Below are positions 44,450-62,258 of a DNA stretch of 64,000 nt, piece by piece. The notes under the pieces were generated by a model that saw only the letters and a program-made list of their open reading frames with translations, did not search any database and was not told the DNA's origin. Each line of letters begins with the position of its first letter. Position 1 is the stretch's first letter. The translations under genes and the position numbers were made by a program. Source of the stretch: a virus; the IMG/VR virus record IMGVR_UViG_3300043449_001732, positions 19,982 through 83,981 of that record. One strand, written 5' to 3'.

Positions 44450-44472
44450 GTTTTACGTCATGACCAGGACGA
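44450..44472 (-). promoter_or_regulatory. Covarying leader hairpin, copy 1
   Basis: On the plus strand AGTTTTA, stem CGTC (44456-44459), loop ATGACCAG, stem GACG (44468-44471). Lies 26 bases before the small membrane gene start. Confidence 0.55.
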
Positions 44473-44476
44473 TTGA

Positions 44477-44803
44477 TCACTCTGGTTTTGCCAGAAGCTC
44501 CTTAATAGATTTGATTTCATCCATCAAATCCTGACGAGTAAAAACTGTGATGCCGTCATAGGAACGTTCCGCAATTTTCTCAGGGTCTTCAGTCTTCTGG
44601 ATCACACGAGCATCATCGTTTGCATCATACGTAACACTCTCGTACATTCTCCAGATAACATCATGAGGCCAGCCATTAAGATCTACGTTCTGCTCTTGTG
44701 CTACACAGATAAGTGCACGCATTGTTTTAAAAAGAAACGTAGCTTTTTCTTCAAAGATCTCAAGGTAGCGATCTTCATCAAGTCCGTAGGTGTCAATTGA
44801 CAT
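44477..44803 (-). CDS. Hypothetical acidic protein
   Basis: 108 residues from MSIDTYG. Helical, acidic, one Cys; C-terminal DEIKSIKELLAK helix. Overlaps the next upstream gene. Function unknown. Confidence 0.55.
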   Translation of the reverse strand: MSIDTYGLDEDRYLEIFEEKATFLFKTMRALICVAQEQNVDLNGWPHDVIWRMYESVTYDANDDARVIQKTEDPEKIAERSYDGITVFTRQDLMDEIKSIKELLAKPE

Positions 44804-44993
44804 AGCAATCAAGTGCGTTGGTTAATGCTTCGATGATAAAGGATTTTTGTCCTTCTTCACCAAGGCTTGTCCAGTATTCAAGCTCTGGATCTTCATCATC
44901 CCAATGAATGCGGATGGTGCAACCACCATCTTCTTCATCAATTACTTCAACCTCCAGCTTCTCAACCCATGTCATAGTTAGTTTTTTAGTCAC
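44793..44993 (-). CDS. Small acidic protein
   Basis: 66 residues from GTG that overlaps the previous stop (GTGA). Strand-rich with EEDGGCTIRIHWDDEDPE. Function unknown. Confidence 0.5.
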   Translation of the reverse strand: MTKKLTMTWVEKLEVEVIDEEDGGCTIRIHWDDEDPELEYWTSLGEEGQKSFIIEALTNALDCYVN

Positions 44994-45199
44994 AGGCCCT
45001 CCAGTTCGGCGGCAATGGCGAGGAGTTCATCTGCATCGCACTCCCACACGTCATGGCCATGGTGTTGCTGGGTGTGAGCAACTGCAGCACGGAGAGCGGC
45101 GGCGATCATTTCCGTTTCGGTGACATCACGGTCAAGGTTGTCGGCCAGTGTGAAGGCGGCATCCAGCACCGCCTGCGCGGCGGGGGAGAGGTCAGTCAT
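44990..45199 (-). CDS. SPAAQAVLDA-family small protein, copy 1
   Basis: 69 residues. MTDLSPAAQAVLDAAF, then an AAALRAAVAH helix and ELLAIAAELEGL. A second member is at 55292. Such proteins recur in Synechococcus-type genomes and phages by memory; function unknown. It overlaps a tiny membrane gene by ATGA. Confidence 0.6.
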   Translation of the reverse strand: MTDLSPAAQAVLDAAFTLADNLDRDVTETEMIAAALRAAVAHTQQHHGHDVWECDADELLAIAAELEGL

Positions 45200-45282
45200 T
45201 TTCTGTCAAGACAAACTAAAAACAGCAAAAGCCAAAGTGATGGTCCAATCTGTAGCGCAAAGGTGTATACTACCTCGCGCAT
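45196..45282 (-). CDS. Tiny membrane protein
   Basis: 28 residues with one hydrophobic helix (SLWLLLFLVCL). Its ATG overlaps the region of the upstream stop and its stop overlaps the downstream ATG (ATGA), so it is translationally chained. Could be chance, but the coupling supports it. Confidence 0.4.
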   Translation of the reverse strand: MREVVYTFALQIGPSLWLLLFLVCLDRK

Positions 45283-45283
45283 A

Positions 45284-45628
45284 TCAGTCATCGGGCAGCT
45301 CCTCAATGGCGCGGCGGATTTGAGACAGGTCGCAGCCCATGCCGTGCATTGCCAGATCCGCGTTGAGCGTGTCCAGCTGCAGTAGCGCCTGCTCCTTCAA
45401 GCTCGGCGGCTTGGGGCGGCGGGCGGCGCGGAGTTGCAGCGTCAGATCGCCAACACCATCCAACCACTCACAACACGCCTCCAGCTCCTGGTCACTGGCC
45501 CATTGGGCGGCGCGGGTGGCGATGTGCTCATCGCTGAGTGAGACGCGGACGGGTGTGCCTTCATGCCAGATTTCGGCAACCCACTGCTGCACCAGCTCCG
45601 GCGGTGGGATAAGGTTATTGTCAGTCAT
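45284..45628 (-). CDS. PELVQQW-family paralogue 1
   Basis: 114 residues from MTDNNLI (coupled ATG at 45703 adds 25). Family landmarks in order: IPPPELVQQW, AAQWASDQELEACCEWL, LRAARRPKPPSLKEQAL, then IRRAIEELPDD. Middle and C-terminal cassettes differ from other copies. Cyanobacterial-type family of unknown function. Confidence 0.6.
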   Translation of the reverse strand: MTDNNLIPPPELVQQWVAEIWHEGTPVRVSLSDEHIATRAAQWASDQELEACCEWLDGVGDLTLQLRAARRPKPPSLKEQALLQLDTLNADLAMHGMGCDLSQIRRAIEELPDD

Positions 45629-45695
45629 TGGGTTACTGTGTGCGGTGAATCGTTCGTAATCGGCTAGTATCCTCGCCAGTCGTTGCGCTCGATAA

Positions 45696-46049
45696 TCAGC
45701 CATCGGGAAGCGCCTCCAGTGCTTTACGAATAAACTCAAGTTCACGCATTTGGTCCGAGAAAAACTCACCGCTCTTCTCAAATCGTTTCACACTTTCCAA
45801 GGCCAGCTCCTTCAAACTCAGTGGCCTCGGGCGGCGATAGTTATAGAACTCAGTCACATCTTCTTCTTCCCATGCAGCGCACTGTTTAAGGTAGTTGCCA
45901 CAAGCCAAAAGCTCCTGGTCGGCGCCCCATTGGGCGGCTACTTCCGCAATGTATTCATCAAACTCAAGAGACACGTACTGTCGATTTGCTGCTTCTACTC
46001 GCCACTGCTGCACCAGCTCCGGCGGTGGGGTGATGTGGTAGTTAGTCAT
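45696..46049 (-). CDS. PELVQQW-family paralogue 2
   Basis: 117 residues. ITPPPELVQQWR, AAQWGADQELLACGNYLKQC, AAWEEEDVTEFYNYRRP, then a distinct C-terminal cassette ending IRKALEALPDG. The centre is nearly identical to the copy at 57171. Confidence 0.65.
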   Translation of the reverse strand: MTNYHITPPPELVQQWRVEAANRQYVSLEFDEYIAEVAAQWGADQELLACGNYLKQCAAWEEEDVTEFYNYRRPRPLSLKELALESVKRFEKSGEFFSDQMRELEFIRKALEALPDG

Positions 46050-46993
46050 TTCTTTTTGATTGCAGATTGGAGTTGTGGTAGTGCAGTACCAGGGAATGGA
46101 ACGTAGCCAGCTTCCATCATACTGAAGAACAGATCCCAGGCATGACCCTGGTTGAATACCTCATTAGGTTTGTACGTACGCCAGTGGGTCAGTGGAGCCT
46201 GAGCGCCAGACTTGGTATGCAGCAGGACAAACTTACCCTCGCTGATGTGGTCAACAGGAGGTGCATACCACCAGGCAACACACTTATCAGGCGTACCACT
46301 GGGCAGTGCATTACGTACTTCAGTGCGTTTGCACAGAAGCTCACGGTACTTATGGAACCAAGTCAGGTGGATGCACCAGGGTTTGAATCCTTCAACCTCC
46401 TGTTGGAATAACGAAACATTAAGAAGCTGACGCTGAAAGGACCCACATGAGCAGTAAGGTTCAGGAGTGCCGGCCTGAATACCTGAGGTGTTTTCCTCCA
46501 GCTCAGACTCCAAGTCAATTGGCCGATTCGGGCTCCGAAGCCCATCCGGCGCAACCAAATGTCCCAGATCTGTCTGCTCATTCTGAAGGAGAGCGACGAC
46601 TTTGGCGGGGTCTGATAGGTGTATAAATTTGTCGGCCCAGTGCTGTTGAAGTTTTGCATTGGATGTCAGGTGTCCAAGTGCATGAGTATAGTTCCAACCT
46701 TTGAACATGACATAAGCATTGTTATGCCACACACTTGGCCCCCTGTAGTTGGGGCCAAGATAAGCAAAGAAATCTTTAAGGCGATGCGTGTACTGCTGGA
46801 AGGAACCCTTGATCAGCTGCCGGTCATAAGCCTGCTCACTACCATCGCGACGCACCACAATACAATGATCACCTCGCAGATAAATACCAGCGATTTCGGT
46901 GTCATCAAAGTCCTGGTACGCACGCCTGATGTTGGTGCGTGTGTAGATCGCAGCCTGCGCCGCGTTGAGTTCCTGCTGAGTTTGGTTGGACAT
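46046..46993 (-). CDS. Protein with SWIM-like zinc motif
   Basis: 315 residues. An alpha/beta N-terminal half; residues ~180-215 hold CSCGSF, ~25 residues, then CIHLTWF, fitting the CxC-xn-CxH SWIM zinc finger; an aromatic C-terminal half (WDLFFSMMEAGYVPFPG). SWIM domains bind DNA or proteins. Coupled to the PELVQQW gene downstream (ATGA). Confidence 0.5.
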   Translation of the reverse strand: MSNQTQQELNAAQAAIYTRTNIRRAYQDFDDTEIAGIYLRGDHCIVVRRDGSEQAYDRQLIKGSFQQYTHRLKDFFAYLGPNYRGPSVWHNNAYVMFKGWNYTHALGHLTSNAKLQQHWADKFIHLSDPAKVVALLQNEQTDLGHLVAPDGLRSPNRPIDLESELEENTSGIQAGTPEPYCSCGSFQRQLLNVSLFQQEVEGFKPWCIHLTWFHKYRELLCKRTEVRNALPSGTPDKCVAWWYAPPVDHISEGKFVLLHTKSGAQAPLTHWRTYKPNEVFNQGHAWDLFFSMMEAGYVPFPGTALPQLQSAIKKK

Positions 46994-47017
46994 GAGTTGA
47001 GTTTGAGTTGAGTTTGA

Positions 47018-47215
47018 TCAGACGTGCCAGGAGCTGTCGTCTTCCCGGATGGTAGCACGGTCCTTGGCATCCTGGTACGCTGCCCGCGATACACGGTACG
47101 TTCCGTAAGCAAGCGCAGCCCATGCCACAGGAGTGCCCACAAGAGCAAGGGCACCCGCACCAAGTAGGCCAAAGGAACCTCCGACTTTTAGAACAGCTTT
47201 GTGCTCAGGCTTCAT
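47018..47215 (-). CDS. Small membrane protein
   Basis: 65 residues. One or two hydrophobic Gly/Ala-rich segments (FGLLGAGALALVGTPVAWAALAYG, residues ~15-38) and a charged C-terminus. Upstream gap to 47297 is an AT-rich divergent promoter region with TAGAAT at 47270-47275 for the rightward gene. Confidence 0.55.
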   Translation of the reverse strand: MKPEHKAVLKVGGSFGLLGAGALALVGTPVAWAALAYGTYRVSRAAYQDAKDRATIREDDSSWHV

Positions 47216-47296
47216 GGTGGTAATCCTTAATACAATCGATTGGTTTCAAATCAGTTTAAATGCAACAAGTAGAATGAACTTAAACAATTTAATCTC

Positions 47297-47524
47297 ATGT
47301 TGAAATTCGAATCATCTGCAGAGGATTTGTTTTGGCAAGAGAAGATGTTCAGAACAATAAATGAATGTACATCACTTAGTGAGTTAAAAGAAATTGCCGT
47401 GCTGTTAACAAAGATTGCAACAACACGGCAGATAGCTATCAAAGGTTTAGTTAATGATGCCCTTGATCTAATGCAGGAGAATTACTCAAGCAAGATCAAG
47501 GACACCACTGATTCCATCAGCTAA
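47297..47524 (+). CDS. Small helical protein, rightward
   Basis: 75 residues, helical (LSELKEIAVLLTKIATTRQ, then GLVNDALDLMQEN). The only rightward gene between 40 and 64 kb, with its own TAGAAT. Its stop overlaps the convergent gene. Similar small proteins occur in cyanophages by memory; function unknown. Confidence 0.6.
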   Translation: MLKFESSAEDLFWQEKMFRTINECTSLSELKEIAVLLTKIATTRQIAIKGLVNDALDLMQENYSSKIKDTTDSIS

Positions 47525-48536
47525 GGCTGCTGTCCTCACCAGTGATTTCATCACGAGCAGGCAGTGCCTTCACCTCTACCGTATCCATGGTACGAGACAC
47601 AGGAAGAATCTCGACACCATCCTTGATGCCATAGGCACCACCAAGTTTCTGTGCATCCTGCTTGGCATGGATGTTGATGTAATCATTGAACAGCTCTTGG
47701 TACTTCCAAGTAGATTCACGATCTTCATCAGGAATCGACAGGCGATTCAATGATTCGACTGCTTCTTCTTGGGTGCTGTAACCAGGAATGTCAAAAGATT
47801 CAATTGCACAGATCTCAACGTTGTTGGCTCCGCGCATCTCGTTGGCAAGTACCGGAGTAAATACGGTAGTTGCATAGAACTTTTCATTGAAGCTCAGAGG
47901 TACTTCAGCATCCAGTGCCTTACTCAGGCACTTGGACATTTCCTTTTCGTACATCTTGACTTTTTCGGAAACGTCTGTGCCATTCAATCCCTTCAGGGTC
48001 AGAACCATCGGGATCTTATGGGCACGCTTGTTGTCCTGGGTCAGGATGTAAACCAGGTACTTGGTGCGTACGCTGTACTTACGCTTGTAGAGATTGCCTT
48101 TGCTACCTTCCAGGTCAGCAGCAATCTTGTCAGCTTCCCACAGTTCCTTAACATCAGGGTTGTCAAAGGTACCAATCGTCTGCCTCATCCCCGTGGTTTC
48201 CTCAACCATGAGGGGAGAACGAAGAAGGATTTGAATTCGAGGCTCAACAAAATTGAGTCCTTCTTCCACTGAAGTGTTGGGAGCCATACCAAAAGTTTGC
48301 TTGTAGTTCCAGATAACTGAACCTTTAGCAAACTGATCTTCAGTGGCACTCCAGCCGCAAGTGTCCAGGTCTGAGTTCCGCACGAACCAACCTCGTGTCT
48401 TGGACTTGTTGAGGGGCTGGATAGTGACGAGGTTTTGGTACCCCGAAACAAATTCTTTGGATTGAAAAAGTTTGAAAGAATCGAGTCCACGTGTTGCAAG
48501 CGCAGAAGTTTTCTTAGTAGTCATGGAAGCGGTCAT
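47517..48536 (-). CDS. Hypothetical protein of the replication region
   Basis: 339 residues. Strands and helices with RTKYLVYILTQDNKRAHKIP and YATTVFTPVLANEMRG; I recall DUF5895-type cyanobacterial proteins with similar phrases but cannot confirm. Lies next to SSB and preceded by the covarying hairpin, suggesting a DNA-metabolism role. Confidence 0.55.
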   Translation of the reverse strand: MTASMTTKKTSALATRGLDSFKLFQSKEFVSGYQNLVTIQPLNKSKTRGWFVRNSDLDTCGWSATEDQFAKGSVIWNYKQTFGMAPNTSVEEGLNFVEPRIQILLRSPLMVEETTGMRQTIGTFDNPDVKELWEADKIAADLEGSKGNLYKRKYSVRTKYLVYILTQDNKRAHKIPMVLTLKGLNGTDVSEKVKMYEKEMSKCLSKALDAEVPLSFNEKFYATTVFTPVLANEMRGANNVEICAIESFDIPGYSTQEEAVESLNRLSIPDEDRESTWKYQELFNDYINIHAKQDAQKLGGAYGIKDGVEILPVSRTMDTVEVKALPARDEITGEDSSLS

Positions 48537-48564
48537 GGTTTGTTCAGGGTTTGGACGTGGACGC

Positions 48565-48586
48565 TTTTAACGCCATCCCGAGGCGG
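48565..48586 (-). promoter_or_regulatory. Covarying leader hairpin, copy 2
   Basis: Plus strand TTTTAA, stem CGCC (48571-48574), loop ATCCCGA, stem GGCG (48582-48585). Twenty-nine bases before the gene at 48536. T-to-C plus A-to-G changes keep pairing relative to other copies. Confidence 0.55.
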
Positions 48587-48590
48587 TGAC

Positions 48591-48830
48591 CTATATTAGG
48601 TCCTTGCAAGCATCCTTGTCATAAAGCGCAGCTGCCTTTGACAAAGCTTCACGTTCATCCAGTGATTCCTGGAGCGCAGCGTAAACACTGTCTTCGTTGT
48701 ACCCGCAGCCCTTCATAAACATGATGAAGTGCTCAAGGATTTCATCAGTAGTAACACCAGCGCTTTGAAATACGACGGTGTACTCTTCTTCCTCAAGAGT
48801 GAACTTCATGCGTTGATCAGTCTTCGTCAT
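48591..48830 (-). CDS. Small acidic protein
   Basis: 79 residues from MTKTDQRMK. Acidic helices (SVYAALQESLDEREALSKAA). Start lies inside the upstream gene (overlap 14). Function unknown. Confidence 0.55.
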   Translation of the reverse strand: MTKTDQRMKFTLEEEEYTVVFQSAGVTTDEILEHFIMFMKGCGYNEDSVYAALQESLDEREALSKAAALYDKDACKDLI

Positions 48831-49053
48831 TGGTGTCCTCAATGTGATGAGCTGTGTGCGCTTCGCGAGCAGAAGAAAAAATTTCAGCAATCAAATAAGA
48901 AGCTTTTGCCATTTCTGTAATTGCTTCAAAAATTTCATCTCCTGTTGTTTCATTTCCATCAAATAATTTACCTACGTTTTCCATAAAGAACTCATAGGCA
49001 ATTGCATCTTTCAAAGAGAAGTCTGTGTCAACGCCCGTAATTTGAATTGACAT
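48817..49053 (-). CDS. Small acidic protein
   Basis: 78 residues, helical, acidic with a His-rich C-terminus (REAHTAHHIEDTNDED). Ends the SSB operon together with its overlapping neighbour. Function unknown. Confidence 0.55.
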   Translation of the reverse strand: MSIQITGVDTDFSLKDAIAYEFFMENVGKLFDGNETTGDEIFEAITEMAKASYLIAEIFSSAREAHTAHHIEDTNDED

Positions 49054-49058
49054 AACAA

Positions 49059-49868
49059 TCAGAAGGGAACTTCTTCAAGGTCAGGTGCAGAACCATACTG
49101 ACCGGGGAGATCAGGCAGTCCACCACCAGAGCTTTGTGTCCAGGGGTCAGAGCCTTCCTCAGCGGTACGGCCACCCCACAGACTAGTGACATTCTCACCA
49201 GAAGCAACAGTTGTCTGCGGTGTAATCGGCTTCACTTCCCCTTGGCCCTTAGGTGCCAGGGTCATCGACACCAATTGGATCTTGGTATTAGAACGCTTCT
49301 CACCTGTGTTGGCATCCTTCCACGCATCAGTAATCAAACGACCCTGGATCGTAAGACCAGTTCCTTTACGTGTGAAGTTAACCAGTAGTTCTGCATTGTT
49401 CAACTTATCTTCTGCCGAGTTCATGGCAAAGAAGTTAAACAGATCTGCCTGATTCCTTCCCGTGTTAACAGAAAGAGTTTGGTTACAGATCATCAAGCCA
49501 TCGGCAGTTGTCTTGAAGGCTCGTGCATCTTCTTGATCAATGTCTTTGACGCAGCGACCGCTGAGGATAACTGTGTTGAAGATCGGGAACTGATCGTTAG
49601 CCGGAGCAATAATTCCTCCATGTAACGAAAACGTTCTGGACTCAAGGTCGAAACGTAGCTTGGCGCCGTGAATGTAGACCTGTGCACCCTTGGGTACTCG
49701 GGAAAAACGCTCGGCATTCTTACCGTACACATTAAGTTCAATTGGCGTTGGAGCTTTCTTGCCTACAGGAGGCAGCATTACCATGCAACGCATGGCTGTA
49801 GAACTTGCGCTGATGAATACCTCACGCGGTACTTCAGTGGTCTGAGCGCAAACAGAAACAAAGTTCAT
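49059..49868 (-). CDS. ssb: Single-stranded DNA-binding protein with two OB-like halves
   Basis: 269 residues. The second half (residues ~95-205) reads like a bacterial SSB OB-fold: FNTVILSGRC, LFNFFAM, FTRKGTGLTIQGRL, TKIQLVSMTL. The first ~90 residues look like a further, diverged OB-fold. A Gly/Ser/Pro linker leads to an acidic, Phe-terminated tip (DLEEVPF) as in SSB partner-binding tails. It coats replication ssDNA and recruits partners. Preceded by the covarying hairpin. Confidence 0.75.
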   Translation of the reverse strand: MNFVSVCAQTTEVPREVFISASSTAMRCMVMLPPVGKKAPTPIELNVYGKNAERFSRVPKGAQVYIHGAKLRFDLESRTFSLHGGIIAPANDQFPIFNTVILSGRCVKDIDQEDARAFKTTADGLMICNQTLSVNTGRNQADLFNFFAMNSAEDKLNNAELLVNFTRKGTGLTIQGRLITDAWKDANTGEKRSNTKIQLVSMTLAPKGQGEVKPITPQTTVASGENVTSLWGGRTAEEGSDPWTQSSGGGLPDLPGQYGSAPDLEEVPF

Positions 49869-49895
49869 GTGTTCGAGAAGTTAGTTGTTAAGGCA

Positions 49896-49919
49896 GTTTA
49901 ACGTCTTACCTGGGACGAG
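49896..49919 (-). promoter_or_regulatory. Covarying leader hairpin, copy 3
   Basis: Plus strand AGTTTAA, stem CGTC (49902-49905), loop TTACCTGG, stem GACG (49914-49917). Lies 28 bases before the SSB start. Confidence 0.55.
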
Positions 49920-49922
49920 CAG

Positions 49923-50096
49923 TCATTCTTTTAGGGTAGGCAAAGGATCACCAAGGCTTTCTAGCCAACACAACATGCACCAGTGTCCGGCGTGTTCTGG
50001 AATAGTGCTTTGTATATATTGAGTATGCGTGCCATGCCTGGGGCAAATCACTTTTAATTCAGGCAGCTTGTCAATAAAAAATTCACTGGAGTCCAT
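49923..50096 (-). CDS. Small zinc-ribbon-like protein
   Basis: 57 residues between DNA polymerase and SSB. CPRHG and CMLCW form two Cys/His pairs about 20 residues apart, as in small phage zinc proteins. It starts two bases after the polymerase stop. Function unknown. Confidence 0.6.
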   Translation of the reverse strand: MDSSEFFIDKLPELKVICPRHGTHTQYIQSTIPEHAGHWCMLCWLESLGDPLPTLKE

Positions 50097-50098
50097 GG

Positions 50099-51949
50099 TC
50101 AGTGGGTATCCGCCCAGGTGCAGCCCACCTTAGCATCACCTTGAATTGGACAGCGGAACCCAAAGAATTGTTGCGCTTGCGGGAACGCAGCCAATGCTTG
50201 TTCCTTGATTAGCTCAGTGTGCCGCGGATCACATGCAACTTGAATCTCATCGTGGACAAACAAGAGTTGTTCCCAATCCTTGCCGTGCACCAAGCCAAGG
50301 TTCTGTTCAATGTTGTTGTGCGTGGTGACAACAACTTGTTTCATGATTGCTGCACCACTTGCTTGCAACAAAACATTCAAGCCTTTAAAAGCGGAACGAC
50401 AATGTAACGTCCGACGATCAAGGCCGATAAGATAACCGCGTAAGCCAATGGTTTCATCAATAAGTTGTTTGAGTTTTCGGAGTGCAGGCACCCCGTCCAT
50501 GAATGAGTTAATTGCAGTAGCTCCTAGTTTCCTAAGAACTACTTCATCTTTTTCATTCGGATCAATAATTGTACCAGCCTTGAATGCACCAGCACCATAC
50601 AAAACCCCATATAGTAAACGCTTAGCAATATCCCTGGTCTCTACACCAAACATCTTTTGGTTGTACACGTGAATGTCAACCTCAGGGTTTGTAACCATTG
50701 CTGAGTATTCACCATCATCCCAGATAGCTAGATACCCGGCAAGACACCTAAGCTCCAAAGCTTTAGCATCGATCCCAATAAGATCCCAACCATCAGGAGC
50801 ATGGAACAACGAACGACATTCATGACCGTAAGGTGAATAACCTGCTGGCACTTGCGCCATGTTGGGATTGCGATGACTCGCGCGGCCCGTAATACATCCA
50901 TTGGTAATGAGATCACCGTGCATGCGGCCATCATCATTATTGACAAGCTTTAACCAAGCATTGTTGCCATCAGCAATCTGACCAAGACGTTTCTTGATCA
51001 GCATATATTCAGCCAATGGTTTGGCTTCCGGGTACGGCAAGGCATCGAGTACATCATCATCAAGAACTGGATTACCCTTCTCAGTATTCTTCTCTGGTAC
51101 CCAACCGTACTTTTGTTGTAGACGTTCAACAATTTGCGTACGAGATCCAGGATTAAATTCCTGATACGTGACTTTAGTAAACGGCTGGCCCTTGACATAA
51201 CCACGTTTCGAATTGTTTACCTTTGGAACAAAGATTGATTCAATCTTGTTAGGTGGAAAGATCTCCTTTAGGTGTGCCTCAAGTTCTGCTTCTTTTGCTC
51301 TGAGACTATCCACCAAATCAAGACATGCATCCACATCAAAAGGAATGCCTGCTCTAATTTGTTTTTCAATTGCCAAGGCAAGATCATGCTCAAGCTTGAG
51401 CGCAGGCTGCGGGTAGTTTTCTTTTGTGATGTGCTGCCAAAGCTTCTTAGTAACAGCAACGTCCTGCTGACAGTATGCCAACATTTCTTCACTGTATTCA
51501 CTGAAGTCTTTGAAGTCGATCTTGTGATCGGCCAACCTCCATCCCCATGCCTTGAGAGATGCAGAACCCTTGAGTCCCTTTGGAACCTGCGTATATTGTT
51601 CATCGTCAATTGTGTAGAGGATTTCTTTGGGCCAGATGAGTCTGGTGCAGATGAGTGTGTCAATGATTCTTCCGTTGAGTTGTACAGATGGATACAGTTT
51701 GTTTAGGACTGGAATGTCATAAAACAAAATGTTGTGGCCAATCAAAACATCAGCGGTTGCCAGATGAGCAAGAGCAGCAGCAATGCGATCAGGCCCATAA
51801 CTAAAAGTTTGTTGGAGTCCAATGTCATATACAACAATGCAATGGATTACCGTCACATTATCGTAGAGACCATCGGACTCCAGGTCAAACACAAGAAAAA
51901 CTTCACCTTCTTGTGGGTACATTGAAAATTTTGAATTACGTACATTCAT
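50099..51949 (-). CDS. polA: T7-like family A DNA polymerase
   Basis: 616 residues. N-terminal 3'-5' exonuclease: FDLESDGLYD, IGHNILFYDIP and YCQQDVAVT. Polymerase motif A: LIGIDAKALELRCLAGY (T7 has a similar ELR); motif B: RDIAKRLLYGVLYGAG, where Tyr fills the Pol I Phe762 position; motif C: FVHDEIQV. Tyr at this site is associated with virulent T7-like phages. It has no 5'-3' exonuclease domain. The start overlaps the HNH gene stop upstream. Confidence 0.9.
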   Translation of the reverse strand: MNVRNSKFSMYPQEGEVFLVFDLESDGLYDNVTVIHCIVVYDIGLQQTFSYGPDRIAAALAHLATADVLIGHNILFYDIPVLNKLYPSVQLNGRIIDTLICTRLIWPKEILYTIDDEQYTQVPKGLKGSASLKAWGWRLADHKIDFKDFSEYSEEMLAYCQQDVAVTKKLWQHITKENYPQPALKLEHDLALAIEKQIRAGIPFDVDACLDLVDSLRAKEAELEAHLKEIFPPNKIESIFVPKVNNSKRGYVKGQPFTKVTYQEFNPGSRTQIVERLQQKYGWVPEKNTEKGNPVLDDDVLDALPYPEAKPLAEYMLIKKRLGQIADGNNAWLKLVNNDDGRMHGDLITNGCITGRASHRNPNMAQVPAGYSPYGHECRSLFHAPDGWDLIGIDAKALELRCLAGYLAIWDDGEYSAMVTNPEVDIHVYNQKMFGVETRDIAKRLLYGVLYGAGAFKAGTIIDPNEKDEVVLRKLGATAINSFMDGVPALRKLKQLIDETIGLRGYLIGLDRRTLHCRSAFKGLNVLLQASGAAIMKQVVVTTHNNIEQNLGLVHGKDWEQLLFVHDEIQVACDPRHTELIKEQALAAFPQAQQFFGFRCPIQGDAKVGCTWADTH

Positions 51950-52692: not shown

Positions 52693-53481
52693 CTATTTAG
52701 CAAGACAAGGTTCTACAGATTCTTTTTGGAATGTTTTGCCATACCCAACGAATCCACCATCCTTCTTGCGTTGTGTGACAGCTTGCATCGCTTCAGATCC
52801 AGCACGCTGGCTCCCATGCACAAGGAGTGCAAACGGTTTGTCACCTAGGCAGTGGCTGTCATCATGATCCACAGCAAGTCCACGTGCAGCCGCTTCCTCT
52901 TCTGTGTACACAACGTAGGCCACCCGCTGGAACACATCGGGATACTTGGGGATCAAGTAATCGAGTGTCCCACCGCAAGACGCGGTGAGATAAAAGTTGG
53001 ATGGGATCTGATCACGCAAGTTGTACCACATACCAAGGGACTTAGTATATGCATAGAACTTTTGCTTGGGTCGCTGGGCAGCAACCATAAGCCAAGCCCG
53101 CATGTAGTTCTCAGTCCAGAAGTCACCCGACTCATGGACCCGCACCAGTTCTTTGGGTGCTTGCATACTGAGTGACAGATCGATCAGATCACGCAGCAAC
53201 ACAGCCTGGTTCCCATTGCGATGCATGGTCTCGCGGATAATATCCCAGTTATGCCAGCGGGCAACACGCACGTTAGGCCGTACCTCGGCCATGGCAGCAA
53301 AGCAGCGGAACTCATCTGCTTCTGTGCCTGTGTACTGGGGCAGGTCAGTAATGAGTCCGGTGACCCGGTCAGCAAATGTCTTGCAGACACCAGCATGTGG
53401 GCATGAGTGACCAGCTGGCAACGAGAAGATCAGACGATTTTTGAGCTTGCCGTTGCCGTTGGAAAATTTGAGTAATTGCAT
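52693..53481 (-). CDS. Gene product 88-family protein
   Basis: 262 residues from MQLLKFSNGNGKL. GP88-type pattern: FSLPAGHSCPHAGVCKTFADR, DEFRCFAAMAEVRP, RWHNWDIIRETM, VRVHESGDFWTENY, FYAYTKSLGMW. The family is widespread in phages with unknown role; the Cys and HESGDF residues suggest a metal or catalytic site. Preceded by the covarying hairpin. Confidence 0.75.
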   Translation of the reverse strand: MQLLKFSNGNGKLKNRLIFSLPAGHSCPHAGVCKTFADRVTGLITDLPQYTGTEADEFRCFAAMAEVRPNVRVARWHNWDIIRETMHRNGNQAVLLRDLIDLSLSMQAPKELVRVHESGDFWTENYMRAWLMVAAQRPKQKFYAYTKSLGMWYNLRDQIPSNFYLTASCGGTLDYLIPKYPDVFQRVAYVVYTEEEAAARGLAVDHDDSHCLGDKPFALLVHGSQRAGSEAMQAVTQRKKDGGFVGYGKTFQKESVEPCLAK

Positions 53482-53529
53482 TGGTGTTGAATGTGATTGA
53501 TTAGTAAAACTAATGTAACCAGTGGATAA

Positions 53530-53551
53530 GTTTAGGGTCATTCCAGGACCA
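53530..53551 (-). promoter_or_regulatory. Covarying leader hairpin, copy 4
   Basis: Plus strand GTTTAG, stem GGTC (53536-53539), loop ATTCCAG, stem GACC (53547-53550). Fifty bases before the GP88 gene start. The outer G-C pair replaces C-G of other copies. Confidence 0.55.
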
Positions 53552-55800: not shown

Positions 55801-55827
55801 TGATCTCCTGGTGTAGATGAATTGGAA

Positions 55828-56512: not shown

Positions 56513-56687
56513 TAAGCAATCCTCCGTCAACAAGAATATCGCACCATTCTTTGAATGGCGCTTCAATTTGAGCCATAGTTTTGTTGTCAACAGTTTCTGG
56601 TTTACGAATCATGGCAATAGCTAGACCAAGAGCATTGCCAAGGCGGTTCTCAAGGTTGTTAAGTGGCACAAACTTGTAGTCAGTCAT
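56505..56687 (-). CDS. Small hypothetical protein
   Basis: 60 residues. MTDYKFVPLNNLENRLGNA, then APFKEWCDILVDGG. Starts on the stop of the next gene upstream (TAATG). Function unknown. Confidence 0.55.
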   Translation of the reverse strand: MTDYKFVPLNNLENRLGNALGLAIAMIRKPETVDNKTMAQIEAPFKEWCDILVDGGLLND

Positions 56688-57178
56688 TACTCAATCTCCT
56701 GTTCAAAAGCAAAAACAAGTGCTGGCGGAAAGTAAACATCGGGATTGCTGGTCATCCACGATGCCACCTCGCGGATTGCGGCGCGGGCCATGGAACCTTG
56801 TTCCTTGATGCTTTCCATTAGAGCGCCTTCGACCCGTTCTACCAGCGAACTCCCAATTTGGGAGGAATTAAGAGATGGCTTGGAGCTAGGTCGTAGCAAT
56901 GCGTTCAACTCCTCCTGTTGTTTTGCTGTGAGTTTTAGCGGTTTACTGATTTCGTAAACCTTTGAGGCTTGGCGTTCAGCAGCTTCCAATGACTCGACTC
57001 GGCTTGCCAAAGCCAAAATGTTGGCGCTGGTTTCAACGATGTGTTTGTGAGCAGCATTCTCTAGTGTTTCAATCCTGGCGCGGAGTTCAAGAATTGCAGA
57101 GCAATCAGAGCTGCCAACTACATCGGCGCATTTCTGAACTTGATTCCATTGATCAGACGTTGCTTTGTAATCAGTCAT
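56687..57178 (-). CDS. Coiled-coil protein
   Basis: 163 residues. MTDYKATSDQWNQVQKCADV, a coiled coil (ILELRARIETLENAAHK, then ALASRVESLEAAERQ), then AAIREVASWM. Similar ELRARIE proteins occur near such arrays in Synechococcus by memory. Function unknown. Confidence 0.6.
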   Translation of the reverse strand: MTDYKATSDQWNQVQKCADVVGSSDCSAILELRARIETLENAAHKHIVETSANILALASRVESLEAAERQASKVYEISKPLKLTAKQQEELNALLRPSSKPSLNSSQIGSSLVERVEGALMESIKEQGSMARAAIREVASWMTSNPDVYFPPALVFAFEQEIE

Positions 57179-57515
57179 TGAGAGCCTCCAGGGCGCGGCG
57201 GATAATTTTTACTTGGTCCACGTCAAACACAATAAGTTCTTTAGCGTCTTCAGGTTCTTCTTCAAGAACTGCCAGCGCCTGCTCCTTCAAGCTCGGCGGC
57301 TTGGGGCGGCGGTAATTATAAAACTCAATTACATCTTCTTCTTCCCACGCAGCGCACTGCTTGAGGTAATTTCCACAAGCTAGTAACTCTTGGTCGGCAC
57401 CGTATCGGGCGGCTTCAATCAACAGTTCATTGATTCCTTTGTTGTAATCATCATGCTGCTCAAACCAAAGCTGCAATAGCTCTGACGGTGGAGTAATGGG
57501 ATGTTGGTCAGTCAT
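57171..57515 (-). CDS. PELVQQW-family paralogue 4 (mosaic)
   Basis: 114 residues. ITPPSELLQLW, then GADQELLACGNYLKQC and AAWEEEDVIEFYNYRRP as in paralogue 2, then SLKEQALAVLEEEPEDAKEL as in paralogue 7. Its DNA at about 57228-57266 is identical to paralogue 7 for ~37 bases. A mosaic of two other copies. Confidence 0.7.
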   Translation of the reverse strand: MTDQHPITPPSELLQLWFEQHDDYNKGINELLIEAARYGADQELLACGNYLKQCAAWEEEDVIEFYNYRRPKPPSLKEQALAVLEEEPEDAKELIVFDVDQVKIIRRALEALND

Positions 57516-57858
57516 CGAGTTGCTCCAGTGCGCGGCGGATGATGTCAACTTCGTTGGATGTCAAGGAAGCACCAGGACCAGTGTCGCCATCCTCCAGTGC
57601 CTCCAGCGCCTGCTCCTTCAAGCTCGGCGGCTTGGGTAATGGGCGGCGGGCGGCGCGGATGTAGCGAGCAAAGTCATAAGCATCCTCACCTGCGTCAATC
57701 TCAACCAGCCTTAGGCACGCCTCCAGCTCCTGGTCGGCGCCCCATTGGGCGGCTTGGGTGGCAATGTGGCACTCGTAAGCATTGTTGATGGCAGCGTCTG
57801 CGGGGCCGCTCTCTCGCCACTGCTGCACCAGCTCTGGCGGTGGGGTGATATCAGTCAT
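57508..57858 (-). CDS. PELVQQW-family paralogue 5
   Basis: 116 residues. ITPPPELVQQWRESG, AAQWGADQELEACLRL, unique middle (IDAGEDAYDFARYIRAARR), PKPPSLKEQALEALED, then VDIIRRALEQLDD. Overlaps both neighbours by eight bases (GATGACTGA joints). Confidence 0.65.
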   Translation of the reverse strand: MTDITPPPELVQQWRESGPADAAINNAYECHIATQAAQWGADQELEACLRLVEIDAGEDAYDFARYIRAARRPLPKPPSLKEQALEALEDGDTGPGASLTSNEVDIIRRALEQLDD

Positions 57859-58207
57859 TGGGCAGAGCCTCCAGGGCGCGGCGAATAATGTCGATTTGAT
57901 CCATGTCAAACACGATGAGTTCTTTAGCATCTTCTGGCTCCGTTTCAAGAGCTGCTAACGCCTGCTCTTTCAAAGTCGGCGGCTTGGAGCGGCGGGCAGC
58001 GCGGAGTTTGTCAGTCTTAATATTGTCCCAGCCTTGTATCAGCCACTCACAACACGCCTCTAGCTCCTGGTCGGCGCCATATTGGGCGGCCATCAAGACG
58101 ACGTGTTCCTCTGCCTCTGAGCTTGTGTACTGCCGGTGGGCGGTTTCTTCCCGCCACTGCTGCACCAGCTCTGGCGGTGGGGTGATGGGATGATTAGTCA
58201 TTGTCAT
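57851..58207 (-). CDS. PELVQQW-family paralogue 6
   Basis: 118 residues (116 from ATG 58201). ITPPPELVQQWREET, AAQYGADQELEACCEWL, LRAARRSKPPTLKEQAL, then EPEDAKELIVFDMDQ and IIRRALEALPND. Shares the C-terminal cassette with copies 4 and 7. Confidence 0.65.
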   Translation of the reverse strand: MTMTNHPITPPPELVQQWREETAHRQYTSSEAEEHVVLMAAQYGADQELEACCEWLIQGWDNIKTDKLRAARRSKPPTLKEQALAALETEPEDAKELIVFDMDQIDIIRRALEALPND

Positions 58208-58506
58208 TCTCCAAGTAATGCACAGGTTTGATCCATGAGTTGAGGGAATACTTCAACAGGACAGATGCGACATTGCGCATGTTCTGTTGGTGTCTTGAGG
58301 TGATCCCATTGAACACGCAACATCTTCATGGTGCGCTTACTCTTCAATTGCTTGGTAACCACCTCAACCACAGTGCCGTATCGCTGGTTGCGGTACTGAG
58401 CAATACGATCCTTAACCTCTTGCCTGATTGCAATCAAGCCATGGGTCTTGGGTCGTTCGGCAACACGGTCGCCAACTTGATAGGTGAATTGAGCTTTGGT
58501 TGTCAT
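58204..58506 (-). CDS. SH3/KOW-like hypothetical protein
   Basis: 100 residues from MTTKAQFTYQVGDRVAERPK; the VGDRVA and YGTVVEVV strands look like a small beta-barrel. C-terminus has two Cys. Coupled to both neighbours. Function unknown. Confidence 0.55.
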   Translation of the reverse strand: MTTKAQFTYQVGDRVAERPKTHGLIAIRQEVKDRIAQYRNQRYGTVVEVVTKQLKSKRTMKMLRVQWDHLKTPTEHAQCRICPVEVFPQLMDQTCALLGE

Positions 58507-58844
58507 CAGATGTGAGTCCAAACTTTGCGGTTGACGATACGTGAGACATGCCCACGGTTGATGCCGTAGATAACAGAGATTGCAAAATTAGTTTTGCCCT
58601 CCTGTTTCAATTTACGAATGTCCAAGATGTTCTGCTCGGTCAACACAGAGAATCCATTCCTGGATCCTTGTGTATCCGCAAGCTTACCGCCTTTCTTGGG
58701 ACCACGGCGGTAATGTTCATAACGCTCAATGGTACGAAACTTAAAACCGCAGTCAAGACAGCGGCAGTAACGTTTGCTAAATGTTTCGCTGTGATCAGTG
58801 CAAGTAACACGTGTGTTCTTGCTGTTGCATGATTCACATTTCAT
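58506..58844 (-). CDS. Zinc-ribbon plus HTH DNA-binding protein
   Basis: 112 residues. N-terminal ribbon MKCESCNSKNTRV and CRCLDCGFKFRT, as in NrdR-like or phage zinc factors. The C-terminal half (LTEQNILDIRKLKQEG, FAISVIYGINRGHVSRIV) is an HTH that often accompanies HNH enzymes. Likely DNA-binding regulator or remnant of a homing protein. Confidence 0.65.
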   Translation of the reverse strand: MKCESCNSKNTRVTCTDHSETFSKRYCRCLDCGFKFRTIERYEHYRRGPKKGGKLADTQGSRNGFSVLTEQNILDIRKLKQEGKTNFAISVIYGINRGHVSRIVNRKVWTHI

Positions 58845-59182
58845 TGTGGATCAATAGAACAAGGTGCATTGTCTTGTGGTTCAGCAACCTTATCTAATTG
58901 CAATGCATCAAGAATATACAGAGTGGTTTCATCACCCAGTATCTTGAATGCATCGATAATCAAATCACGGTTGCGTTCAGTTGGGTTGTAGTAATCCAAT
59001 AGGATTTCTTCTGCTCGATCAAAGTTGTCATAGTCACCAGTGAGTTGTTCAACCACTGCACCAGGCATCGCATCCACTAGGTTTGCTACCAGTGAGTCAC
59101 GCACTGCAGCCCATGTCCAACTTGGGACACGGGAGACTACTTCATCAACGAGATCAAGATTAATGAGATTAGGTTGTGTCAT
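58841..59182 (-). CDS. Hypothetical acidic protein
   Basis: 113 residues from MTQPNLINLD. Acidic helices, Trp pair (SWTWAAVRDSL), Cys in the tail. An 8-base-spaced hairpin precedes its ATG. Function unknown. Confidence 0.55.
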   Translation of the reverse strand: MTQPNLINLDLVDEVVSRVPSWTWAAVRDSLVANLVDAMPGAVVEQLTGDYDNFDRAEEILLDYYNPTERNRDLIIDAFKILGDETTLYILDALQLDKVAEPQDNAPCSIDPQ

Positions 59183-59186
59183 AGAG

Positions 59187-59212
59187 AAAGACCCCGACTT
59201 GCGCCGGGGTCC
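59187..59212 (-). terminator. Hairpin before the gene at 59182
   Basis: GACCCCG (59190-59196) with CGGGGTC (59205-59211), loop of eight; leftward it is followed by TTTCTC. Weak terminator or a start-proximal leader hairpin. Confidence 0.5.
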
Positions 59213-59230
59213 GAACATTCCGCATGAATA

Positions 59231-59593
59231 CTAGACGGGTTCAGCGCTGGTGTCTAGTGCATCACCCATTACACCAGAGGATCTTAATTTTTCCAGCATG
59301 TCGCACATGATAGTGGCATGAGCATGGGTCTGATCCATGAAGTGCTTGGCACGTTCTGCGCTGATGGTGTGGATGTTCCCATTGGGCTCCACATATTTCC
59401 AGCTCCCATCAGGCTGAGGATCCCCCTGGAGAGCCAGCCGCTCTGAGTTGTGTACGTAGCGAAGCTCTAGGTTATGGAAGTCTTGCAGGCCATCCTGAGC
59501 GGTCCAGGTAGCACCAATGTTGTAACGCTTGTCATGATCTGAGTACGCATGGAACTCAGGAACGATGTGCTTGAAACAGGCAAAAATGTTCAT
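59231..59593 (-). CDS. Hypothetical protein
   Basis: 120 residues from MNIFACFKHIVPEFH. Mixed strands with several Trp and His; C-terminal helix (HATIMCDMLEKLRSS). Lies downstream of the tRNA gene. Function unknown. Confidence 0.55.
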   Translation of the reverse strand: MNIFACFKHIVPEFHAYSDHDKRYNIGATWTAQDGLQDFHNLELRYVHNSERLALQGDPQPDGSWKYVEPNGNIHTISAERAKHFMDQTHAHATIMCDMLEKLRSSGVMGDALDTSAEPV

Positions 59594-59616
59594 TGTGTTT
59601 GAGTTGAATGAAAGGT

Positions 59617-59692
59617 TGGTACCCGAGGTGAGATTCGAACTCACGCTGTAGCGATTTTAAGTCGCTTGCCTCTTCCGCTGGGCTACTCGGGC
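59617..59692 (-). tRNA. tRNA-Leu (UAA anticodon), short variable loop
   Basis: Full cloverleaf on the minus strand: acceptor GCCCGAG/CTCGGGT (first pair G-T), D stem GCC/GGC, anticodon arm AGCGA-CTTAAAA-TCGCT with anticodon UAA, five-base variable loop, T arm GTGAG-TTCGAAT-CTCAC, and encoded CCA. UAA reads UUA leucine codons, yet cellular tRNA-Leu has a long variable arm; this one is class I in shape. It may aid AT-rich phage codons. Ten bases overlap the end of the upstream gene. Confidence 0.85.
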
Positions 59693-59901
59693 TCACTTGG
59701 ACTTACATCAATTGATGTTGACTGCCAAGTGTGGTCTCGTGGTAATACCTCTAAACCGTATTGCCAACTGTCGTAGTCATCTTCATTACGAGGATCCTGC
59801 TCATCAATCAATACATAATCAGGTGTGCCATGAGTATGTATGTACTCACCAATGTTGGCAAGTGCTTGTGCCAGGAGTTGGTCGTCGGTGTACTCAGTCA
59901 T
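59683..59901 (-). CDS. Small acidic protein overlapping the tRNA
   Basis: 72 residues, acidic (LIDEQDPRNEDDYDSW). Its TAG stop is inside the tRNA acceptor region. An 11-pair hairpin (59910-59939) lies eight bases before its ATG. Function unknown. Confidence 0.55.
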   Translation of the reverse strand: MTEYTDDQLLAQALANIGEYIHTHGTPDYVLIDEQDPRNEDDYDSWQYGLEVLPRDHTWQSTSIDVSPSEPE

Positions 59902-59909
59902 AGGTGAAT

Positions 59910-59939
59910 GCCAGCCCTAGTATCGAGGCTAAGGCCGGC
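59910..59939 (-). promoter_or_regulatory. Intergenic hairpin, 11 pairs
   Basis: GCCAGCCCTAG (59910-59920) with CTAAGGCCGGC (59929-59939), two G-T pairs, no T-run. Lies between the PcfJ-like gene's stop and the next start, so it may be a processing or coupling site. Confidence 0.45.
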
Positions 59940-59952
59940 AAGCCTGTGCGGG

Positions 59953-61695
59953 CTAGACAGACTCTAGCGCATCTGCTTGAAGTTTCAACGCTTTGCCAAA
60001 GGCTTCTGTGTAGGAATCCTTTTGCTCTTGCGTCAACCGCTGGTTGGATGTACCAACGATCTGGCTAACACTCATCATGCCCATCTCAACTTTGAGTTGG
60101 ACAGTGAACTGAGGTTTGCCGTCAACCATACAGAGCACAATGAAATGTTTCTTCTTGCGTACACCAGTGGCATACTCACTGGCATTGCCGACGCAATTAC
60201 GTACGGCCTGGCCCCATGCTGACAGTTGATGTGTGTCATGAGGCTGGAAGAATGACCAACGTTCATCACCCACTTCAACCTTTATAGGTGAGGGGAATAG
60301 ATCCTGAGGCAGGCTAGCGTTTGGATGCTTGATCTTCCATGCTTCTGCTTGCACATGATCATGGAACTCAGTCAGGCGCCAACGCTTTGGCGGATCAATG
60401 GTCATGTCATTGTTAAGCACATCATCAAGCATTGATAGTGTGTCATTCCATTCAGTTAAATAGAATGTAAGCTTGCCTGTCTCAGTGCTTGTGTAGTAAG
60501 ACAAGCTATTGGGTTTGTCATTGATCTGATCTTCGTAGTTTTTCTTGAGGATATGAAAGAAGGAAGCTGGTTGCATATGTGTGCGCAACCAGGTCTTTGC
60601 CTTTTCACCTACGCAACGATCAAGGCGTGTGCCAATTAGATATTCAATATGGTTCTGATAGAAATCAACAGGGCAGTCCGGCCAAATATTATTAACGTAA
60701 TCAATAGCCTGCACTAGTTTTTCAATACGATTCCAAGGTTGAGTTATCTTACGGAATAGATTATTCTCAGGATTATTAAACATTGCAATAGCTTCATCAC
60801 ATTGCGATTGAATCCACTTGCGGAAGAATGGTGTACCAACTATATGTAATACGCGATCAATAATGCAATATACCTGGCTGTGATAATCATTATGATTCTT
60901 CTTATATACATCAGCTAATGCATAAAACAAATCTGCAGATGGAACCAAGTCACGTTTAGCTTGCTCTGGATCAGCAAAAGTATTCCAATACTTACTGCGA
61001 TCTTTTAATCCAAGAATCGCAGCCCAGTTATTGGTAACAATGCGATCAAAGAATCCACGTGCGTCATCCCATTTAGGAATGGTTTGACCAAGTGCAGATT
61101 CAAATGCTGATATAGCTGTCCTGATGTTACAGCCTTTGCCATATGATACGTAACAAGGGCACCACCAATGGGTTGTATTGCCGTTAGCAATATCTTCCTT
61201 GGTTAAGTTCTGACGTACAACGCAGAACTCACTGCGTCCGTACTTAACATATTCAACTGAAACTTTACTGTTGTTTTGAAGCAAGGTACTTGGAAGAGAC
61301 TTGCGTACCGATTCAAGATTCTTGTATGCATATGCGTAGCCATATACATAATCATTCTCTTGTCCTTTGGGTGGCAGCCATGCTGCATACCACACCTTCT
61401 CGTAGTGATAAATGATGGCACGAGTAATGGTGCGTGCTCTTGGCGTAGCAACATCTACCACCTTGGTAAACTGAGCATGGCGATGTTCTACACCCCTGGC
61501 ATTGAGATCAGTTACTACTTCCTCAAGCTTTGTAGGTGTAACAACATCAGCAGGTATCAGATCAAAGACTGCGCCAAGTGGAAACTTAGCTTTAGCCTTG
61601 GTTGACGTAGGATTCTGCTCACGTTGTAGCTGCTTGAGCTTGGGATCGTAAGCCAGGAGTTCTGTTTGAAGGTTCGAAGGTAATTGAAACTGCAT
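59953..61695 (-). CDS. PcfJ-like protein
   Basis: 580 residues. The C-terminal ~130 residues resemble the PcfJ domain: a long helix with LTEFHDHVQAEAW, then HQLSAWGQAVRNCVGNASEYATG and HFIVLCMVDGKPQFTVQLK, VSQIVGTSN. The N-terminal 450 residues are helical with Trp-rich stretches and two Cys. PcfJ-like proteins occur on plasmids and phages with unknown role. Preceded by the covarying hairpin. Confidence 0.6.
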   Translation of the reverse strand: MQFQLPSNLQTELLAYDPKLKQLQREQNPTSTKAKAKFPLGAVFDLIPADVVTPTKLEEVVTDLNARGVEHRHAQFTKVVDVATPRARTITRAIIYHYEKVWYAAWLPPKGQENDYVYGYAYAYKNLESVRKSLPSTLLQNNSKVSVEYVKYGRSEFCVVRQNLTKEDIANGNTTHWWCPCYVSYGKGCNIRTAISAFESALGQTIPKWDDARGFFDRIVTNNWAAILGLKDRSKYWNTFADPEQAKRDLVPSADLFYALADVYKKNHNDYHSQVYCIIDRVLHIVGTPFFRKWIQSQCDEAIAMFNNPENNLFRKITQPWNRIEKLVQAIDYVNNIWPDCPVDFYQNHIEYLIGTRLDRCVGEKAKTWLRTHMQPASFFHILKKNYEDQINDKPNSLSYYTSTETGKLTFYLTEWNDTLSMLDDVLNNDMTIDPPKRWRLTEFHDHVQAEAWKIKHPNASLPQDLFPSPIKVEVGDERWSFFQPHDTHQLSAWGQAVRNCVGNASEYATGVRKKKHFIVLCMVDGKPQFTVQLKVEMGMMSVSQIVGTSNQRLTQEQKDSYTEAFGKALKLQADALESV

Positions 61696-61728
61696 GGTGA
61701 GTTCGGAGTAGGTTCGGAGTAAGTGGAC

Positions 61729-61753
61729 AGTTTAGCGTCATGTCCAGGACGTA
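61729..61753 (-). promoter_or_regulatory. Covarying leader hairpin, copy 5
   Basis: Plus strand AGTTTAG, stem CGTC (61736-61739), loop ATGTCCAG, stem GACG (61748-61751). Forty-one bases before the PcfJ-like start. Confidence 0.55.
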
Positions 61754-61758
61754 TGGTG

Positions 61759-62007
61759 TCAGTCGTTATCTACTGGGAGTAGTTCCCAGTCAGGGTTGAG
61801 CAGAGCAAGATAATCGCAGAAGCCATCTTCGTCAAGAGGGATTTGTTCTCCCTCATCCAGTTCGAAGCTTGTTCTGCATAGTGCAGGAGCGTACTCATCA
61901 GGGTCGAGGTAAGTCGACTTACGAATGAGACGCATTTCGTCAACCACTGCTGTAACTGTAACATCGTTGCCGTCAATGAATGTTTCTTCGATTGCTAGGA
62001 CTTGCAT
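61759..62007 (-). CDS. Small acidic protein
   Basis: 82 residues, beta-rich start (MQVLAIEETFIDGND), acidic C-terminal half. Three bases after the upstream gene. Function unknown. Confidence 0.55.
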   Translation of the reverse strand: MQVLAIEETFIDGNDVTVTAVVDEMRLIRKSTYLDPDEYAPALCRTSFELDEGEQIPLDEDGFCDYLALLNPDWELLPVDND

Positions 62008-62010
62008 GGG

Positions 62011-62208
62011 TTATACCTGTGTGAGTTGCTTGGCTTGGGCAAACTGACCTTGAGGTCCATACTTCTGGACAAGGTCAGGGAATGCATCAAGCAAACGCTG
62101 CCGATTCTTTGGATCAGCAAAGCGTAGTGCTTGTGCAATTGAGGATACGAATGATCCGCCATAGCTGTCCATGCGGGCAATCATGGCGTGGAGTTCGGTT
62201 GAGTTCAT
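62011..62208 (-). CDS. Small helical protein
   Basis: 65 residues from MNSTELHAMIARM. Helical with FVSSIAQALRFADP and QRLLDAFPDLVQKYG. Coupled to the covarying hairpin 28 bases upstream. Function unknown. Confidence 0.55.
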   Translation of the reverse strand: MNSTELHAMIARMDSYGGSFVSSIAQALRFADPKNRQRLLDAFPDLVQKYGPQGQFAQAKQLTQV

Positions 62209-62235
62209 GAGATGAGGTTGAGTTGGACTGGATGA

Positions 62236-62258
62236 GTTTAAGGACATCCCAGGTCCTT
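62236..62258 (-). promoter_or_regulatory. Covarying leader hairpin, copy 6
   Basis: Plus strand AGTTTA, stem AAGGAC (62240-62245), loop ATCCCAG, stem GTCCTT (62253-62258). Longest stem of the set and different bases from copies 1, 3 and 5, a clear compensatory change. Confidence 0.6.

Follow-up and report, generated by a model that had tools for sequence, protein, structure and literature searches.

We analysed a 64,000-nucleotide (nt) window, the bases 19,982-83,981 of the 83,981-base virus record IMGVR_UViG_3300043449_001732, whose opening 60 bases are found again near its end. Six gaps between the leftward genes of this window each hold a predicted cis-acting H-type RNA pseudoknot of 28 nt, supported by covariation of both of its helices, P1 and P2. 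An earlier inspection of the DNA without database searches (the sequence-only reading) had described hairpins at the six sites, and all six are present. Of the isolates found, the freshwater Synechococcus phage S-EIV1 is nearest, with an SSB identity of 72.5%; the SSB gene of the window served as the bait for finding relatives. Two further contigs, L004 (IMGVR_UViG_3300042503_000838) and L005, encode an SSB 99% identical to that of the window and are close relatives of this phage. A tRNA gene also lies among the leftward genes, at 59620-59692(-) (Rfam tRNA, 58.5 bits). The copies of the element and the SSB gene are as follows, with sequences given for the minus strand, which is the coding strand of the genes concerned:

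44444..44471, minus strand: pseudoknot 1, CGTC C TGGTC AT GACG TAAAACT GACCA; 5 nt after the TGA of the upstream open reading frame (ORF) and 19 nt before the ATG of a small membrane gene of 39 amino acids (aa) (44305-44424)
48559..48585, minus strand: pseudoknot 2, CGCC, loop TCGGGAT, GGCG TTAAAAGCG TCC; P2 of only ~3 base pairs (bp), GGA/TCC; 5 nt after a TAG and 22 nt before gene 47517-48536
49059..49868, minus strand: SSB gene (phrog_44, E=9.7e-27), downstream of pseudoknot 3
49890..49917, minus strand: pseudoknot 3, CGTC C CAGGT AA GACG TTAAACT GCCTT; P2 includes one G-U pair; 5 nt after a TGA and 21 nt before the SSB gene
53523..53550, minus strand: pseudoknot 4, GGTC C TGGA AT GACC CTAAACTTA TCCA; 8 nt after a TAA and 41 nt before the ATG at 53481 of a phrog_1392 gene (GP88 in the sequence-only reading)
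61724..61751, minus strand: pseudoknot 5, CGTC C TGGAC AT GACG CTAAACT GTCCA; 7 nt after a TGA and 28 nt before gene 59953-61695 (580 aa, earlier described as PcfJ-like)
62229..62256, minus strand: pseudoknot 6, (AA)GGAC C TGGG AT GTCC(TT) TTAAACTCA TCCA; 5 nt after a TGA with P1 taken as 4 bp, and 20 nt before the ATG at 62208 of a gene that has 65 aa from this ATG and is listed as 62011-62247
G000:754-781, minus strand: seventh copy, outside the window, 22 nt before an ATG

In the transcribed orientation (minus strand) the layout is P1 of ~4 bp, L1 (C), P2 of ~5 bp, L2 (A followed by U or A) and L3 (nUAAACU), such that the window sites follow the general form P1 - C - TGGnn - AT - P1' - nTAAACT - nnCCA. 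Past the TAAACT stretch lies an nnCCA with which the TGGnn of the loop can pair, so that the element is an H-type pseudoknot rather than a hairpin. The P1 stems are as the sequence-only reading had them, namely CGTC/GACG (three sites), CGCC/GGCG, GGTC/GACC and (AA)GGAC/GTCC(TT), but the hairpin that they form is only half of the structure. Its plus-strand loop, ATnnCCAG, occurs at four of the six sites, with 48585 reading ATCCCGA and 49917 reading TTACCTGG, and in place of the flank GTTTA there is GTTTTA at 44471 and CTTTTA at 48585. A degenerate seventh copy suspected near 47005 is without a P2 partner, failed the pseudoknot scan and was dropped. The C in L1 and the A-rich L3 suggest that the fold is triple-stabilised.

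Scanning for P1 and P2 jointly, with TAAA in the third loop, recovered four of the six sites in the window and the copy at 781, each with full Watson-Crick pairing (8/8; P1 4/4, P2 4/4). Thirty dinucleotide shuffles of the genome yielded a mean of 0.17 TAAACT-loop matches and a maximum of 1. Moreover, S-EIV1 carries the element at seven sites, six of which precede the orthologues of all six window genes (protein identity 44-84%). The stems differ in S-EIV1 yet stay paired, for example P2 ahead of SSB and P1 ahead of the phrog_1392 gene, which supports covariation:

S-EIV1 25893-25920: orthologue of pseudoknot 1, P1 AGTC/GACT, P2 TGAGC/ACTCA
S-EIV1, orthologue of pseudoknot 2 (protein identity 84%): P2 likewise 3 bp, GGC/GCC
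S-EIV1, orthologue of pseudoknot 3 (SSB): P2 CAAGC/GCTTT against CAGGT/GCCTT in the window, compensatory changes
S-EIV1, orthologue of pseudoknot 4 (phrog_1392): P1 TGTC/GACA against GGTC/GACC in the window, P2 CAAGC/GCTTG
S-EIV1, orthologue of pseudoknot 5: P1 TGTC/GACA, P2 TGAGT/GCTCA
S-EIV1, orthologue of pseudoknot 6: P1 GGTC/GACC, P2 TGAGT/ACTCA

Viral contigs were then scanned exactly with GTCCTGGNNATGACGNTAAACT, leaving the 3′ strand of P2 unconstrained, and the element was present in at least 120 stretches (counts from viral contigs are lower bounds). From these, 108 non-identical elements were drawn, P2 being no part of the selection; pair 4 of P2 was Watson-Crick in 106 of them, with all four pair types represented (shuffled mean 42.6, maximum 60). 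A regular expression for the loops only, applied to all fetched DNA, returned 323 unique 28-mers. Where the P1 core was other than GTC/GAC, 30 of the 33 28-mers with a complete P1 also had at least 4/5 pairs in P2; over twelve distinct P1 sequences are represented, and P2 seldom occurred where P1 was absent. P1 and P2 co-occur, that is, when selection is by loops alone. An exact scan free of P1 gave 13 stretches, four of them paired through new P1 stems. Covariation was scored on a chosen set of 47 elements, in which P2 is partly selected: 36 have at least 4/5 pairs in P2 (six of these without a complete P1) and the remainder are representative elements. Changes on both sides were seen in nine of nine pairs (121 cells against 40 shuffled) and the score was 0.80, compared with 0.245 for shuffled and at most 0.18 for slid elements. 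In helix 1, 4/4 pairs changed on both sides and 92.6% of cells were paired, whilst the corresponding values for helix 2, which joins the hairpin loop to the 3′ flank, were 5/5 and 92.8%. Paired change exceeds chance, and the proposal that selection acts on structure has survived the covariance test that the sequence-only reading set for it. It has also survived the second test set there, whether relatives have the same genes without the element, given the six orthologous sites of S-EIV1.

The element is found between genes. Same-strand ORFs of at least 80 aa contain 6/137 non-cyanobacterial and 18/197 S-EIV1-like copies, compared with 62-68% of random positions. The sequence-only reading had placed the six copies in front of transcription units; they do lie upstream of genes at a constrained distance, but are intercistronic, with a stop codon 5-8 nt before every window site, and a transcript start is not shown. 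Over 341 elements, taking P1 as 3 bp, the commonest offset from stop codon to element is 6 nt (94/341), with 7 nt in 34 and almost never less than 6. In S-EIV1-like phages, where the genes downstream fall into 34 unrelated families, the family medians from stop to P1 are at least 6 with a pile-up at 6-8, and those from pseudoknot end to AUG are at least 20 in all but one, piling up at 20-22. The latter distance has a floor of 19-20 nt in these phages, with a single site at 13. Such a geometry suggests that the pseudoknot must stay folded, packed tightly between a terminating and an initiating ribosome. The fixed 5-6 nt after stops also prompted a readthrough or frameshift stimulator as a candidate, which was rejected: the downstream frame is often closed, in many cases inside or just past the element as read from the element sequences, and stop identity and frame vary. 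A bacterial selenocysteine insertion sequence was rejected because TAA and TAG are found at the same place. A Pistol-like ribozyme is alike in P1, in the pairing of loop with 3′ side and in UUAAA, but the element showed neither additional helices nor a conserved flank for cleavage.

The hairpin promoter offered by the sequence-only reading is largely refuted and was rejected for lack of conserved upstream hexamers at fixed spacing. One contig group does have a −10-like TATAAT downstream of the element, and BPROM calls a promoter over the copy in Staphylococcus phage B166. However, no upstream column exceeds 0.15 bits across 110 non-redundant sites outside S-EIV1, no −10/−35 is conserved at a fixed distance, and the tRNA, Microviridae and mini-ORF contexts described below have no common promoter layout. 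Both helices covary, moreover, as RNA would, and a hairpin promoter or other DNA-level element is thus extremely improbable.

The element reaches far beyond the relatives of S-EIV1. Carriers among cyanobacterial phages include S-EIV1, S-CRM01, S-SM2, Ma-LMM01 and NMeng1; others infect Firmicutes (Staphylococcus, Streptococcus, Lactobacillus, Geobacillus and Moorella), Actinobacteria (Corynebacterium, Mycobacterium, Arthrobacter and Microbacterium) and alphaproteobacteria (Paracoccus and Roseobacter), and the Microviridae, which are tiny DNA phages, also carry it. In addition, 36 bacterial genome contigs contain the element, as a single copy in each of 23 genomes checked. There were no matches in 5,426 complete E. 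coli genomes, and those in enteric phages were short or poor at the sensitivity used. None of 4227 Rfam models matched at the element positions scanned, which included the window sites and 18 annotated phage loci; away from the elements Rfam matched tRNAs, one abiF RNA and weak chance sequences. The abiF RNA (RF03085, 49.7 bits) lies at L077:3037-3073(+), on a contig that carries the pseudoknot. Text searches of the literature found no account of such an element. It would appear to be a very widespread structured phage RNA that has been overlooked so far, probably owing to its length of 28 nt and to being recognisable only via its pseudoknot.

The genes on either side recur in type. In non-cyanobacterial phages, portal or head-morphogenesis genes are found on one side and scaffold and major capsid genes on the other, the element standing directly before scaffold and major capsid in Staphylococcus B166, Streptococcus Javan407, Lactobacillus phiEF-1.1 and Geobacillus D6E. 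In CRP-13 it lies between ribonucleotide reductase and glutaredoxin, upstream of the latter. Phages such as S-CRM01, Molivia and NMeng1 also have copies that precede a tRNA by 3-11 nt or lie between two tRNAs; in S-CRM01 149,420-149,550 (L302), pseudoknots separate consecutive genes of the phage tRNA array. Comparison of 74 downstream and 74 upstream proteins with PHROGs showed no single common pathway, the recurring types being head scaffolding downstream, and portal or minor head proteins and ribonucleotide reductase upstream. Bacterial copies usually follow a tiny ORF ending ...VAHCKEGC and start exactly 8 nt past its last codon; in some, a terminator comes next or there is no close downstream gene. 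This mini-ORF, of ~17-25 aa with the ending ...M(L)(R/P)(P/R)VAHC(K/S)(E/D)GC, stands directly before the pseudoknot in loci including L147, L150, L152, L156, L163, L164, L169, L171 and L173. Its hosts are Omnitrophota, deltaproteobacteria, Clostridia, Myxococcota and a Cytophagales metagenome-assembled genome (MAG), it is often beside Rrf2 regulators or redox or metal genes, and it looks like a putative leader peptide or small protein.

The reading that we tentatively favour is that the pseudoknot is a folded roadblock or insulator shielding the RNA downstream of it. It would occupy the gap between two cistrons and be sized to remain folded during upstream termination and downstream initiation, so that the downstream cistron or tRNA (scaffold and capsid, SSB, tRNA precursors) would outlast and out-produce the upstream one; all decay steps in this model are conjectural. 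A roadblock fits better than a purely translational device, because the contexts are ORF-ORF, ORF-tRNA and tRNA-tRNA and the spacing is limited on both sides.

The main rival, and a serious one although we consider it unlikely, is a ribosome-recruiting leader, in which the pseudoknot and an unstructured G-poor leader recruit the 30S ribosomal subunit (e.g. via protein S1) as a standby site or enhancer replacing the Shine-Dalgarno (SD) sequence. An SD-like motif is present at only 4/124 non-redundant sites of S-EIV1-like phages, where the leader has 10% G; in S-EIV1 itself 0/6 pseudoknot genes have an SD and G falls to 3% over the last 20 nt. The distance from pseudoknot to AUG is 20-22 nt in many unrelated genes, and the tisB mRNA binds S1 and 30S through an H-type pseudoknot (PMC7708055). 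However, SD use is low across S-EIV1 generally (26/128), a normal SD is found at 47/92 non-cyanobacterial sites, and the distances resemble a lower limit with a tail. Placement upstream of a start together with an unstructured leader is seen in S-EIV1-like phages but not at the copies before tRNAs. A purely translational role does not explain the copies before and between tRNA genes, because no translation follows there.

The element could alternatively belong to the 3′ end of the upstream cistron, as a folded cap past the terminating ribosome that blocks 3′-5′ exonucleases or acts on termination. The sharp limit and pile-up 6 nt past stop codons would suit this, as would the fixed place after the VAHCKEGC mini-ORF, with a terminator next in some cases, and an RNase P cut of a following tRNA would put the element at a 3′ end. 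Some phage copies, however, lie just past an intrinsic terminator (L188, L259, L267, L274, L294 and L295) and would be missing from the terminated upstream RNA, and recurrence of gene type is clearer downstream (scaffold-capsid) than upstream; we regard this explanation as improbable.

Several observations from bacteria weigh against a downstream-shielding roadblock. RNase J scored above the curated cut-off in only 9/23 bacterial carriers (several of which are incomplete MAGs), and all Omnitrophota carriers tested were without it at that cut-off. A barrier to RNase J only, resembling the exonuclease-resistant RNAs (xrRNAs) of eukaryotic viruses, is unsupported as a general rule, since most bacterial carriers show no such enzyme above the cut-off. 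Moreover, the constant partner in bacteria is the tiny ORF upstream, and some copies precede a terminator or no close gene. There the element would act where an ORF ends or beyond that point, because the mini-ORF upstream is constant whilst the downstream gene is sometimes absent. It is possible, but doubtful, that the roadblock is general among prokaryotes, i.e. a mobile 28-nt pseudoknot marking RNA boundaries across tailed phages, Microviridae and some bacterial mini-ORFs, with the following cistron or tRNA surviving decay of the preceding RNA. If true, viral exonuclease-resistant RNAs would have their bacterial equivalent here, one that sets protein ratios such as scaffold and capsid over portal. 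The roadblock offers a hypothesis for unequal protein output from one phage operon (portal versus capsid) and, if real, a compact genetic part with which to tune cistron ratios.

The element belongs to a known type, the cis-acting mRNA pseudoknots, although its function is possibly new. The preQ1-I riboswitch, located in a leader, is similar in its H-type fold, its very small size and its third loop rich in A. Unlike preQ1-I, the present element had no Rfam match at the window sites or the 18 annotated phage loci and has many copies per genome before unrelated genes, and no queuosine genes were seen. The pseudoknot of phage T2 has a 7-bp S2 and different loops, so stem and loop lengths differ from those found here. 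The gene 32 operator of T4 and RB69 is a ~28-nt H-type pseudoknot in the leader of the phage SSB with a less structured leader after it, and gene 32 mRNA is reported to be the most stable T4 mRNA (PMC535899, PMC3014915). Size, H-type fold and the one copy in an SSB leader are shared with this operator. However, the operator is reported for one gene of T-even phages and is bound by the product of that gene (PMC535899, PMC3014915), whereas the present element is not restricted to SSB and is found upstream of numerous genes unrelated to one another, and of tRNAs, in phages that are themselves unrelated.

This bears on a further explanation, that the element is a ligand- or protein-binding regulator, be it a riboswitch, a ribozyme or a phage-protein operator like that of T4. 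Its copy before SSB recalls the SSB of T4, which binds a pseudoknot within the mRNA that encodes it (PMC535899), and seven loop positions are invariant in the 47 elements, which were partly loop-selected. A compact triple-stabilised pseudoknot would need the same invariant loops, however, and the spread over unrelated genes, tRNAs, phages and hosts without a common PHROGs pathway makes a regulator of this kind quite improbable.

The standby pseudoknot of E. coli tisB (S1 = 9 nt, S2 = 5 nt, L1 = 0, L2 = 2, L3 = 3) is likewise of the H-type, adjoins a single-stranded region, lies upstream of a start codon and binds S1 and 30S (PMC7708055). It differs in its stem and loop lengths, in lying ~100 nt from the start site, in belonging to a host toxin mRNA and in having no UAAACU loop. 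In its manner of working, the proposed roadblock is analogous to eukaryotic viral xrRNAs, in that a viral RNA fold borders the part of a transcript that would escape decay (PMC5760640). The xrRNAs are Xrn1-specific and larger (PMC5760640), whereas some bacterial carriers of the present element are without RNase J.

Two other arrangements were seen. In a family of eight contigs (L029, L044, L060, L065, L087, L094, L116 and L140), the pseudoknot lies 7 nt after a gene ending ...KTITIK*, and a strong extended −10 (TGGTATAAT) is located 6-8 nt ahead of the next ATG. So short a distance from extended −10 to ATG suggests that the downstream mRNA of this family is leaderless. Lastly, a motif, aagTCCCAGGA, is repeated upstream of some S-EIV1 genes that have no pseudoknot, among them 40427-40711 and 41277-41408 (L144/L145), and may be a degenerate relative of the pseudoknot.
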